NCBI GenBank assembly: GCA_030148805.1 | Contig: JASBSS010000007.1 | Span: 62,001-126,000, forward strand | DNA from: Thiogranum sp. | GTDB taxonomy: Bacteria; Pseudomonadota; Gammaproteobacteria; DSM-19610 | Length of the DNA: 64,000 bases | Direction: 5' to 3' | Shown: one piece after another, positions 23,714 to 35,369 of the stretch | How the letters are laid out: every line of letters begins with the position of its first letter | Numbering within the stretch: position 1 is the first letter of the stretch | Translations under genes and position numbers: made by a program | The notes under the pieces: model-generated | What the model was told of the DNA's origin: nothing | The model's database searches: none | The model's input: only the letters and a program-made list of their open reading frames with translations

Positions 23714-24103
23714 CAGACCTCCGGTTATCGTCCACGCAGCTTACTGTAGTCGCGACGGTCCGCCTAGCGCGGTTGAAGACGCTGTCAGTCTACGCCTACA
23801 CACCGGGGCGTGGCCACCCGCCGAAGCCGCCCGTTATTAGAAGTGGGGGCGCCCCCTGACGGCCGGCAAGAGCCGCCGAGAACTCCGGCCCCGCGCGATC
23901 CCAATGCCGTGACCGTCCTCTTCGTCGCGTACAGTACCTCATCATTGGTTGCTCGGCCGAATGACGCGGTGATTCCGTAACACGGAAAACCGGCAATGCC
24001 GGGGCCGAAACCGAGCGAAAGCTCGCTGGCGTCATTTGAGTTACACGGCTTAAAGGGAATGTCTTATTATAGATCCCCGCCCCCTAGACAGGAGGAGAAT
24101 CCC
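23714..24103. promoter_or_regulatory. Divergent intergenic region with three consecutive short inverted repeats
   Basis: Between the kinase and the EF-hand peptide gene lie three inverted repeats in a row: TTCCGT-AAC-ACGGAA (23972-23986), CCGGC-AAT-GCCGG (23989-24001) and CGAGC-GAAA-GCTCG (about 24011-24024). An AT-rich TATTATAGAT element follows, about 40 bases before the ATG at 24104. They could be regulator sites or a folded leader RNA. I recognise no known riboswitch class. Confidence 0.5.
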
Positions 24104-24517
24104 ATGACACAGAAATCCACGATCCACCCGTTAACGGTAGTCTTGGGCGCTGCGTTCACTGTGACTCTGGTCCACAGCGGCAGCCTCAGCGCCGCCGACA
24201 ATCCCTTCGGCATGAAAACACTGTCCCGGGGCTACCTGCTACTGGCGGATAACAAAACCGGTGAAGGACGGTGCGGAGGCGGCGAAAGCGGCAAGCATGG
24301 CGAGGGCAGGTGCGGGTTGTCACGCATGGACAGCGACGGCGACGGCAAAGTCACCAAAAGCGAATTCATGGCCGGGCATGAAAAGATGTTCGAGCATATG
24401 GACCAGAACGCCGATGGCGTGATCGATCAGGCCGAAGGCGATGCCCACATGAAGCACATGATGGAATCCATGAAAGCCGGCAAGAGTAGCGAAGGCAAAT
24501 GCGGCGGCGCGAAATAA
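24104..24517 (+). CDS. HvfA-like precursor peptide with EGxCG motifs and a pair of EF-hands
   Basis: The protein is 137 residues, starting after AGGAGGAGAATCCC. The N-terminus (MTQKSTIHPLTVVLGAAFTV to about residue 30) is a signal-type leader, followed by ADNPFGMKTLSRGYLLLAD, which resembles HvfA-family leaders of modified copper-binding peptides. EGRCG occurs at 54-58 and 67-71 and EGKCG at 130-134. HvfA-type motifs of this kind are converted to oxazolone/thioamide by DUF692 enzymes with a partner. Between them sit two EF-hand loops (Asp76-Glu87 and Asp100-Glu111). No DUF692 or partner gene is in the window. The role is inferred; an EF-hand metal-binding secreted protein is the cautious alternative. 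Confidence 0.7.
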   Translation: MTQKSTIHPLTVVLGAAFTVTLVHSGSLSAADNPFGMKTLSRGYLLLADNKTGEGRCGGGESGKHGEGRCGLSRMDSDGDGKVTKSEFMAGHEKMFEHMDQNADGVIDQAEGDAHMKHMMESMKAGKSSEGKCGGAK

Positions 24518-24760: not shown

Positions 24761-25201
24761 CTACCAGCTCTTATAGGGCAGGAACTTGCCGCTCATGGTG
24801 ACTTTGACGCGGTCGCCCGCCGGGTTCTCCTCCCTGGCGATATCCATCGAAAAGTCGATCGCCGACATGATGCCGTCGCCGAATTTTTCGTGGATCAATT
24901 CCTTGATGGTCTCGCCGTAGACGCCGACGAGTTCATACCAACGGTAGATCACCGGATCGGTAGGCACCGCCTTGTCCCAATGTTTGTGCGGATACGACTG
25001 CAAGGCGGCGGAAACCTCGCCCGGCAGCTTCAGGACCTCGCAGAGCCTGTCGGCAGCCGGCGACCGCAGGCTGTTCATCCCCAGGCAGGCGGAAGTCAGA
25101 AAGACCGGCGACAGGCCGACCTGTGCTGCGAGCTGTTCCCAACCGAGCCCAGCGGTTTGCTTGGCCTGGATGATTGCTGCGCTCATTTCACGTTTGTTCA
25201 T
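24761..25201 (-). CDS. cynS: Cyanase (cyanate hydratase) CynS
   Basis: The enzyme converts cyanate and bicarbonate to carbamate, giving ammonia and CO2. It has 146 residues. The N-terminal helical domain is MSAAIIQAKQTAGLGWEQLA. The catalytic region is VIYRWYELVGVYGETIKELI followed by GDGIMSAIDFSMDI, with the conserved Arg, Glu and Ser. GAGGAGAAATCGC precedes the ATG. It is the last gene of an operon with a formate/nitrite channel and a fused phosphatase/kinase (59-base gap), suggesting that the channel may supply anions or bicarbonate to it. Confidence 0.95.
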   Translation of the reverse strand: MNKREMSAAIIQAKQTAGLGWEQLAAQVGLSPVFLTSACLGMNSLRSPAADRLCEVLKLPGEVSAALQSYPHKHWDKAVPTDPVIYRWYELVGVYGETIKELIHEKFGDGIMSAIDFSMDIAREENPAGDRVKVTMSGKFLPYKSW

Positions 25202-25260
25202 GCGATTTCTCCTCTGGGTATCGGGGACGGACGGTATGGACGGATTGGCATGGCTCGGGG

Positions 25261-27060
25261 TCAGGCGTGCAGTCCGGGATGCGTGACCACCAGGGCGAGG
25301 ACCAGCAGAAACAGCGTCAACGACAACAGCTTCCAGAACAACAGCGGGTGGCGCTCGATCAATGGCGCGCCGCGCGCGGCGACCAACGCCGGATTGGGAT
25401 GGCGCAGGTCGTGGAGAAACTCCGACAGGGTGTCGTAGCGCTTCGACGGATTGGGATGCACGGCTTTCCTCACACAGCCGTCGACCCACTGGGGTATGGC
25501 ACGGTCGCGATTCCCGAGCGGACGATAGCGAAGTTTACGTTGCGCGGCTCGGCTGGTGGCCCGCGCCACACCGGCGCCATACGGAAGGCGGCCGCTGAGC
25601 ATCTGGTAACAGATCACGCCAAGGGCAAACTGGTCGGAGCGCGGCGTCCCCGGCTCGCCGAGAAAATACTCCGGCGCGGTATACTGGGCGGTGCCAAGGC
25701 GTTGTTGCCGCCCCATGGGCCCGCCCGACTCGGCGATTCCGGCAACCCGCACCGAGCCGAAGTCGATGAGCTTGATCCCCCCATGGCGGTCGATCATGAT
25801 GTTGGCCGGACGCAGATCCTGATGGATCATCTCCTGGCGGTGCAACGCGCGCAGTCCCTTGACGATCTGCTCGACGATGCCACGCACGCGCTCCAGCGGC
25901 GGCCGCGGATTGTCGCGCATCCATTGCTCGAGCGTCTGTCCCTCGACGTACTCGAACACGGTGTACAACGCGCTGCGCCGCCCGCCGTCGGACGGCGCCT
26001 TGAGCAGATGCGGATTGTCCAACCGGCGGGCGACCCACTCCTCGGTCAGGAAGCGTTCCAGATAGTCCGGATTGTCGCGCTGGTCGACCGACGGTGTCTT
26101 CACGACCACCGGGCGCCGGGTGTTCAGCTCGTCGGCCAGATACACATGGCTGCGGGCGCTGCTGTGGATATTGCGCAGAATGCGGTACCCATCGAGCAGG
26201 CTGTTCGCCCTCAATGCCGGGGGGAACGGCAGGAGCGCGGCCCGCTCGCCAACCACGTCCAGCTCCGGTACCGGCAGTTGATCGACGCGCACGATCTGGA
26301 TGGTCAGATTGTCCGTGCTGCCGTTGCGCCGGGCGCGATCGACGATCCGCCGCGCGGCAAGATCCAGATTATCCCCGTGCTCGCGGATGACCCTGGCGAT
26401 ATCGCGCTCGGAGACGTGTTCGTAAACCCCGTCGGTCATCAGCACCAGTGTCGCCCCCTCCTCGACGTTGTAGCGTCGGTAGTCCAGCTCCAGCCGCTCG
26501 CGCATGCCCAGGGCACGGCTCAGGTAGCTCTTGTCGTGGGCCACCCAGAGGCGGTGTTCTTCGGTCAGCGGTTCCAGGCGCTCGCCGCTGAGATAGGCGA
26601 TGCGCGCGTCGCCGATGTGGAACACGTGGGCGCTGGTGGCCTTGAGAACGACGGCGCTGAACGTGCAGACATAACCGCGGTTCAGGTCGAAACGATGCGG
26701 GCCGTGGCGGGACTGGGCGTACAACCAGGAGTTGATGGCCGCGAGCACACGGTGAACCGCCGTTTTGACCGACCAGGCTTCCGCGGTGGCGTAGTAGTCG
26801 GTGATAAAACTCTTGACCGCCGTCTCCGCCGCGACCTGACTGACCTCGCTGCTGCTGATACCGTCGGCCAGCGCGACTACGACACCCTTGCGCGCCAGCA
26901 ACGAACCGCGGGGATGGACGCAACCGTGGAAATCCTGGTTGACGTCCTTAGCCCCCTTGTCGGAACACTGCCCGACCTCGATTCGCAGCGCGTTACCCGC
27001 CTTCAGGGCGTCTGGCGCACGCGGTGCCCTGCCCGCTGCCACTGCGCATCCGCCGATCAA
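25261..27060 (-). CDS. Bifunctional PP2C-type phosphatase / Ser-Thr protein kinase
   Basis: The protein is 599 residues. Residues about 25-260 are a PP2C phosphatase (DKGAKDVNQDF, VVALADGISSSEVSQVAAET, VFHIGDARIAYL, LVLMTDGVYEHV, STDNLTIQIV). About 290-550 are a kinase with VVVKTPS lysine, the catalytic loop IHQDLRPANIM (HQD in place of HRD) and LIDFGSVRV. A single transmembrane helix is at the C-terminus. The start appears to be TTG overlapping the stop of the channel gene (TTGA). The same fused architecture is known beside nitrate/nitrite transport genes in pseudomonads, so it may control nitrogen-anion uptake. Confidence 0.9.
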   Translation of the reverse strand: MIGGCAVAAGRAPRAPDALKAGNALRIEVGQCSDKGAKDVNQDFHGCVHPRGSLLARKGVVVALADGISSSEVSQVAAETAVKSFITDYYATAEAWSVKTAVHRVLAAINSWLYAQSRHGPHRFDLNRGYVCTFSAVVLKATSAHVFHIGDARIAYLSGERLEPLTEEHRLWVAHDKSYLSRALGMRERLELDYRRYNVEEGATLVLMTDGVYEHVSERDIARVIREHGDNLDLAARRIVDRARRNGSTDNLTIQIVRVDQLPVPELDVVGERAALLPFPPALRANSLLDGYRILRNIHSSARSHVYLADELNTRRPVVVKTPSVDQRDNPDYLERFLTEEWVARRLDNPHLLKAPSDGGRRSALYTVFEYVEGQTLEQWMRDNPRPPLERVRGIVEQIVKGLRALHRQEMIHQDLRPANIMIDRHGGIKLIDFGSVRVAGIAESGGPMGRQQRLGTAQYTAPEYFLGEPGTPRSDQFALGVICYQMLSGRLPYGAGVARATSRAAQRKLRYRPLGNRDRAIPQWVDGCVRKAVHPNPSKRYDTLSEFLHDLRHPNPALVAARGAPLIERHPLLFWKLLSLTLFLLVLALVVTHPGLHA

Positions 27061-27944
27061 ACGCTGGCTTTCAACGTCGCCGATGGCGCGTCATCGCCCG
27101 ATTCGACCGCCAGCGGCACCTGGTCGCGGTGGTCTTTCAAGATACGCTCGGGACTGGTGCGCACGTGGGTGAAATACAGCGGCAGACCCACGAAGACGAA
27201 ACCACCCACGAGATTACCCAGTGCGGTGGGTAGTTCGTTCCAGATGATGTATTCCATGAAGGTGAAGCCGCCACCCATGATCATCGAAAAGGGGAACAGG
27301 AACATGTTGACGATGGAGTGCTCGAAGCCCATGAAGAAGAACAACATGATCGGCATCCACATGGCCGCCATCTTGCCGGTGGCCGAGCTGGAAATCATGG
27401 CGCCCACCACCCCCATGGAAACCATCCAGTTGCACAACATGCCGCGGATAAAGATGGTGAACCAACCCTCGACACCGAATGCCTTGTAGCCCAGGGTACG
27501 GGCCTCCCCGATATGGGACACCTTGGCGGCAATGGCGCCCCCATCGGTATTGTAACCGTACGTCAGGATGAACGACATCATGAATGCCACCGACAACGCG
27601 CCGGCGAAGTTGCCGACGAAGACCAACCCCCAGTTCCTAAGAACCTGCCCCACGGTCACCCCGGGGCGCTTGTCGAGCAGCGCCAACGGAACCAGCGTGA
27701 ACACGCCCGTGAGCAGATCGAACTTCATCAGGTACAGCATGATGAAACCGACCGGGAACAGCACCGCGCCGACAAGCGGCGAGCCGGTCTTGGTGGCGAC
27801 GGTGATGGCGAATACAGCGGCCAGGGCCAGAATCGCGCCAGCCATGAATGCCCGGATCAGCGTATCCTTGGCAGACATGTAGACTTTGGATTCCCCCTGA
27901 TCGACCATCTTGGTAACGAATTCACTGGGTTCTAGATATGACAC
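27057..27944 (-). CDS. Formate/nitrite transporter family channel
   Basis: The product is 295 residues from a GTG preceded by GAGGGAGC, giving the usual start SYLEPSEFVTKMVDQGESKV. The frame is open 25 codons upstream. Six transmembrane segments and the family loops DTLIRAFMAGAILALAAVFA, GNFAGALSVAFMMSF, GMLCNWMVSMGVVG and FFFMGFEHSIVNMFLFP are seen, including the gating and selectivity histidine in GFEHS. It conducts small monovalent anions such as nitrite or formate. Being first in the operon with cynS, cyanate or bicarbonate transport is also possible but unproved. Confidence 0.9.
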   Translation of the reverse strand: MSYLEPSEFVTKMVDQGESKVYMSAKDTLIRAFMAGAILALAAVFAITVATKTGSPLVGAVLFPVGFIMLYLMKFDLLTGVFTLVPLALLDKRPGVTVGQVLRNWGLVFVGNFAGALSVAFMMSFILTYGYNTDGGAIAAKVSHIGEARTLGYKAFGVEGWFTIFIRGMLCNWMVSMGVVGAMISSSATGKMAAMWMPIMLFFFMGFEHSIVNMFLFPFSMIMGGGFTFMEYIIWNELPTALGNLVGGFVFVGLPLYFTHVRTSPERILKDHRDQVPLAVESGDDAPSATLKASV

Positions 27945-28108
27945 GGAAAGCTCCCTCTCAACTATGATTTGCGCGTTCGCGACAGAATTTGCCCCAGGCA
28001 CGACCTTGCGCTCCGCCACTGCCGCCGCCCGGCGCGCAGGCCCCTGGTGATCTCGAATCGCAGGGAGTCAATTACCGTGCCAATTCCTAATGCACTGAAT
28101 TTGTGCGG

Positions 28109-34601: not shown

Positions 34602-35369
34602 ATGAATACTATCGCCCAACTTCTGCTACCGGCTTTGATTCTGCCCGCGCTATTCTCGTTCAGCCTGCTGGGGCTGGGCAGGCGCCACCCCGCCGTCCAC
34701 AAGGTGCTGATTCTGGCCTGGCTGCCGTCCTATCTCTGGATCAACGGCGTGCCGGAGTTCCTGTCGCGCGACGCCACCCATTGGTTGTGGTTGGTGGCGC
34801 TGCTGGCCGCCGCAGCGGCGTTCCTCCAGCGCCGCGCTCCGCGCAGCGCGGCGCAGACGGCGCTATTGCTCGCCGGTCTGCTGACCGTCGTCTGGCCTCT
34901 CGCCCACTTGCTCACAGCGGGGTTCGCACTGGGCCTCGGCGCGACCCTGCTGATCGGCGCGTCGCTCCATTACTTCGCCGACCACCGCTCCTCCCTGCCG
35001 GTAACGACCACCGCCGTAAGCCTGGCCGGTCTCGGTCTGGTGTCAGCGTTCGGGGGCAGCCTGCTCGTAGGCCAGTTGGCGATTGCGCTGGCGGTGCTCC
35101 TGAGCGGGTTCTCGCTGGTTGAAATCTTCCGCCTGCCGTTGCGAGACCGGTTCCCGCTCGAACTTCTGGGGCCCTTGTTCACCCTCTACCTGGTGTTGCT
35201 GCTCATCGGGCAGGTCTACGCCGACCTGCCGCTCGGCCCGGTGGCGCTGTTGCTCATCGCGCCGGCGGCCGGTGTGGTGCCGCGCTGGCGCTACGGCGTG
35301 CTGGTCAGTGCGGCGCTGGCCGTTGCCGCGCTAGCGTGGTCACTGGCAGGCGGTAGCGCCGCAAGCTAA
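34602..35369 (+). CDS. Uncharacterised polytopic membrane protein
   Basis: The protein is 255 residues with about seven or eight hydrophobic segments spread over its length and only short charged loops. Conserved-looking features include HKVLILAWLPSYLWINGVPE in the first loop and LHYFADHRSSLPVTTTAVSL in the middle. I do not recognise the family. It lies 52 bases after yceI and 11 bases before the dioxygenase, so it is likely co-transcribed with both. Confidence 0.7.
   Translation: MNTIAQLLLPALILPALFSFSLLGLGRRHPAVHKVLILAWLPSYLWINGVPEFLSRDATHWLWLVALLAAAAAFLQRRAPRSAAQTALLLAGLLTVVWPLAHLLTAGFALGLGATLLIGASLHYFADHRSSLPVTTTAVSLAGLGLVSAFGGSLLVGQLAIALAVLLSGFSLVEIFRLPLRDRFPLELLGPLFTLYLVLLLIGQVYADLPLGPVALLLIAPAAGVVPRWRYGVLVSAALAVAALAWSLAGGSAAS

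Follow-up and report, generated by a model that had tools for sequence, protein, structure and literature searches.

The gene and its product

The window, by which we mean the whole 64-kb stretch of DNA analysed, carries a stand-alone gene for an HvfA-type precursor protein with a pair of EF-hands (Table 1). The open reading frame starts with an ATG at 24104 and ends with a stop codon at 24515-24517. If translation began at another in-frame ATG, at 23996, the product would have 173 residues; the shorter start, giving 137 residues, is favoured because the starts of the orthologues coincide with it. The parts of the protein are arranged in the order Sec-type leader, EGRCG, EGRCG, EF-hand loop 1, EF-hand loop 2 and EGKCG. 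The cysteine motifs are spaced rather than joined in a tandem EGKCGEGKCG, and the C-terminal motif is single and isolated. A search of the protein against PHROGs returned zero matches. The gene is flanked by a large sensor histidine kinase gene, divergent upstream, and by a cyanate lyase gene, convergent downstream. The cyanate lyase (Pfam-checked) stands in a minus-strand row at 24761-28019 with a fused phosphatase/protein kinase-like ORF and a formate/nitrite-transporter-like ORF. A weak KCG-model match at 35267-35332 of the window was dismissed as a low-complexity frame without EGxCG motifs.

Table 1. Positions in the window of the precursor gene and its parts
Feature	Position	Strand	Basis or remark
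HvfA-type precursor gene, stand-alone, with EF-hand pair	24104..24517	+	137 aa; ORF, genus orthologues, dN/dS mostly 0.1-0.2
Ribosome-binding site AGGAGGAG	24090..24097	+	Direct sequence reading
Leader, aa 1-50: predicted Sec-type signal peptide and HvfA-like segment NPFGMKTLSRGYLLLA (aa 33-48)	24104..24253	+	Shuffle test, alignment
EGRCG motif 1, aa 54-58	24263..24277	+	Sequence, genome pattern search
EGRCG motif 2, aa 67-71	24302..24316	+	Cys 6 residues before first EF-hand ligand
EF-hand loop 1 DSDGDGKVTKSE, aa 76-87	24329..24364	+	Pfam PF00036/PF13202/PF13405 above cut-off
EF-hand loop 2 DQNADGVIDQAE, aa 100-111	24401..24436	+	Two Pfam EF-hand stretches; conserved ligand columns
EGKCG motif 3, aa 130-134, C-terminal of the EF-hands	24491..24505	+	Sequence

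The initial annotation had described two well-formed EF-hand loops between the second and third motifs, and both proved complete: each consists of 12 residues with every ligand position filled (DxDxDGxVxxxE in loop 1, DxNxDGxIxxxE in loop 2), and the protein scores above the Pfam cut-offs for EF-hand_1 (36.1 bits, E 3.2e-9) and PF13202 (32.9 bits), with two stretches matched in each case. AlphaFold2 gave a poor model of the protein, with a mean pLDDT of 55.9 and a pTM of 0.30. The EF-hand part (approximately residues 71-120) alone attains a pLDDT of 65-76, and confidence in the flanks is low. Within window 24302-24331, the second EGRCG ends four residues ahead of the first EF-hand ligand, where the entering helix of an EF-hand is expected. 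The same spacing was found again in most aligned members, and a modified cysteine at this motif could affect the calcium site.

Likeness to HvfA was more difficult to capture with profile models. EF-hand models were matched above cut-off, whereas both NCBIfam models for HvfA remained below theirs, with 15.2 of 19.5 bits for KCGExKCG_twice and 10.8 of 95 bits for the HvfA equivalog. The HvfA proteins of the same genome likewise fall below the equivalog cut-off, and the orthologue of genome G008, with 29.0 bits, passes the KCGExKCG domain model and not the equivalog. The leader was therefore compared directly. Residues 1-50 scored 79 and 66 against the leaders of the two HvfA proteins of the same genome, on contigs C5 and C17, and none of 2000 shuffles reached either score; for the genome's BufA2 leader, the score did not rise above chance. 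The stretch following the predicted cleavage site scored 52 against the C5 HvfA (best of 2000 shuffles, 32) and 34 against the C17 HvfA, a value reached by 2 of 2000 shuffles. Judged from these alignment scores, the leader shares ancestry with those of its genome's HvfA proteins, and by the same similarity it is predicted to be a Sec-type signal peptide with an HvfA-like leader. The HvfA-like leader and the EGRCG, EGRCG and EGKCG motifs of the initial annotation were thus both recovered, the leader surpassing all 2000 shuffles against either HvfA.

Modification enzymes and related genes

RiPP enzymes usually modify the precursor encoded beside them. No homologue of the MNIO (DUF692) enzymes was found within the 64-kb window, which bears out the initial reading on this point. 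The genome encodes three MNIOs, all on contigs other than that of the window. Those at C5:105840 and C17:27527 both score above the NCBIfam HvfB cut-off and lie in the gene orders HvfA-MNIO-DUF2063-DoxX and DoxX-HvfA-MNIO-DUF2063, respectively. The third, at C5:12983, comes just after a BufA2-type bufferin gene (locus L001 on C5; bufferin 1100-1378, MNIO 1498-2310), so that the genome holds systems of both the bufferin and the oxazolin type. The lack of any DUF692/HvfC pair in the genome, named at the outset as the result that would count against an HvfA-like precursor, was not what the search returned: there are two complete HvfA/HvfB/HvfC/DoxX sets in addition to the BufA2-type set. MNIO genes are present in 222 of 369 sampled genomes of the class (60%) and in 19 of 20 of the family; at this base rate in the class, the co-occurrence of chimaera and MNIO is real but weak evidence.

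Orthologues of the EF-hand chimaera occur in 11 genomes of the genus, including its own, and eight have intact motifs; the seven other intact proteins are 54-67% identical to the window protein. All 11 genomes encode an MNIO. Among the intact members, most pairwise dN/dS values (Nei-Gojobori) fall at 0.1-0.2, which indicates that the gene is under selection; in several pairs the synonymous changes approach saturation. The cysteine of motif 2 is kept in all eight. The EG has disappeared from most motifs of the three remaining members (L026, L027 and L028, in G009, G001 and G005), which keep the CG and the EF-hands and whose genomes still have an MNIO; these members are possibly drifting away from modification. 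No MNIO was found near the orthologue in the 10 other genus regions read, several of which are on short contigs. A conserved gene neighbourhood was rejected: close genomes have a small number of gene pairs in common, and no neighbour is consistently shared by the orthologues and the window. Genome G008 consists of one contig rated 100% complete, and its single MNIO lies beside an ordinary HvfA, with about 558 kb separating it from the chimaera; in this genome modification could only occur in trans. Together with the conservation of the unlinked precursor, this makes G008 a clean case for asking whether one HvfBC pair serves separate loci.

Four other families include six genomes (G031; G062 and G202; G151 and G263; G383) in which a gene for the same EF-hand architecture immediately precedes an MNIO, and a DUF2063 gene comes next wherever the locus is long enough to read. 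Such proteins therefore appear to be cognate precursors there. In G063, G203 and G350 the chimaera is again without MNIO linkage. Of the 19 aligned members, 15 have an EGKCG after the second EF-hand and all have a C-terminal CG; the EF-hand ligands rank with the best conserved positions of the alignment. A single origin of the fusion could not be upheld, as the tree from about 52 leader columns is mostly without resolution; its label counts are not used here, since the automatic labels wrongly grouped L029, L079 and L083, which are EF-hand members, with the plain HvfA proteins.

In most genomes of the genus, hvfA is preceded by an ECF-sigma-like element, GGAAMYTTT-N13-GGTCGTA or a close variant, at fixed spacing. 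It occurs once in the genome under study, at 1007-1035 of L002 (G000:C5:105346-105374), and also ahead of hvfA in L030, L031, L036, L037, L039 and L047. Neither the C17 hvfA nor the chimaera genes have this element upstream. Shared regulation of the chimaera and the hvf operons was consequently rejected, and the two may not be co-expressed.

Comparison with known systems

The initial annotation regarded the fusion of an HvfA-like peptide with EF-hands as undescribed, but EF-hand chimaeras of EGKCG precursors, as well as precursors without linked MNIO genes, had been reported by Antoine et al. 2025 (PMC12452194). The gene is one more example of this fusion type, and the system is of a known kind. 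With the published Buf_EGKCG/EF-hand chimaeras it shares a signal-peptide-like N-terminal helix, a short EGKCG region without 17-residue repeats and two EF-hand_5 domains (PMC12452194). These were described with the EF-hands C-terminal of the EGKCG domain, whereas the window protein adds an EGKCG after them; the comparison is with the description, and there may be no real difference (PMC12452194). We did not find described in that work EF-hands flanked by motifs at both ends, chimaera promoters differing from those of hvf operons, or a genus-wide stand-alone orthologue including one in a complete one-MNIO genome (PMC12452194). As the published family includes unlinked precursors (PMC12452194), adjoining MNIO and DUF2063 genes are usual for HvfA precursors and not required.

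With the HvfA/oxazolin and fontiphorin precursors (captophorin class) the protein has in common a Sec-type leader, an NPFxMxxLSxGY-like segment, as in the HvfA proteins of its own genus, EGxCG motifs, and an MNIO with a DUF2063 partner in the same genome. It differs from them in the EF-hand insertion, in the few and spaced motifs, in EGRCG replacing EGKCG at two sites and in being encoded apart from the enzymes. The BufA2 bufferin of the same genome (L001) belongs, like it, to the Sec-exported MNIO substrates, but shows no leader similarity and has a different cysteine pattern. Periplasmic proteins of the EfhP type are bacterial, have a proposed part in calcium handling and share the EF-hand pair; to our knowledge, neither EGxCG motifs nor an HvfA leader have been reported for them. 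Antoine et al. themselves drew the comparison with EfhP (PMC12452194).

The chemistry first assumed, oxazolone/thioamide formation, has since been revised: the modification of HvfA was reassigned to 5-thiooxazole (PMC13097082, PMC13419390), which is accordingly the expected product. Modification of HvfA by HvfBC takes place in the cytoplasm, ahead of export, and works much better on the full-length precursor than on a version lacking the signal peptide (PMC13419390). FonBC accepts Arg at the Lys position, tolerates single leader substitutions, and modifies a two-repeat substrate and not a one-repeat substrate (PMC13097082). By analogy, the two EGRCG cysteines are plausible HvfBC substrates, and the isolated third cysteine may remain unmodified given the inactivity of FonBC on a single repeat.

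Proposed action of the protein and alternatives

We consider it probable that the gene encodes a stand-alone precursor of the oxazolin/captophorin type with an inserted EF-hand pair, which is modified in trans by HvfBC to give a periplasmic copper- and calcium-binding peptide. Of the two possibilities first raised, a precursor modified in trans or a metal-binding protein with a borrowed motif, the former is the better on circumstantial evidence. For the window protein we infer trans recognition, modification, metal binding and a functional role of calcium. An HvfB-HvfC complex from another locus of the genome would act in the cytoplasm, where it would recognise the leader by its likeness to that of HvfA and turn EGxCG cysteines into 5-thiooxazoles, after which Sec export would be followed by removal of the signal peptide. 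Calcium is low in the cytoplasm and higher in the periplasm, so the EF-hand pair may remain unfolded through modification and Sec passage and fold only after export. In the periplasm the pair would bind Ca2+ and fold, and the flexible thiooxazole-bearing arms on either side of it would bind copper. The chimaera offers a test case for the action of an MNIO on a protein with a folded domain within it and, if modified, would tie copper handling to calcium within one peptide. A bolder version seems unlikely, namely a calcium-gated copper peptide in which HvfBC acts in trans on the flexible, calcium-free precursor, folding on calcium binding after export brings the flanking thiooxazoles together into one copper site, and expression is set apart from the hvf operon.

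The protein might instead be an unmodified, HvfA-derived periplasmic metal-binding protein that has kept the leader as a signal peptide, with cysteines acting as plain thiol ligands for copper and EF-hands binding calcium. This is less probable, yet it would fit the consistent lack of MNIO linkage within the genus, the eroded EG beside persisting CG in L026-L028, the promoter unlike that of the hvf operon and the suggestion that unlinked precursors may go unmodified (Antoine et al., PMC12452194). It accounts poorly for the retention of both the EGxCG motifs and the post-cleavage leader segment in eight genus members, as a mere signal peptide would need neither, and for the MNIO-operon-linked relatives in four other families. 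A periplasmic protein mainly for calcium binding or calcium response, comparable to EfhP and with the EGxCG motifs as secondary leftovers, appears improbable: the cysteine motifs are retained on either side of the EF-hands in most members, even though both loops are complete, their ligands are among the best conserved positions and the EF-hands are the best-kept part of the degenerate members. The EF-hands of lanmodulin have a proline at loop position 2. A lanthanide-binding protein of that kind is highly improbable here, as the best PDB sequence match, lanmodulin (E 1.6e-6), is limited to the EF-hand stretch, the NCBIfam LanM match is weak and far below cut-off (26.3 of 135 bits), and neither of the two loops has a proline at that position.
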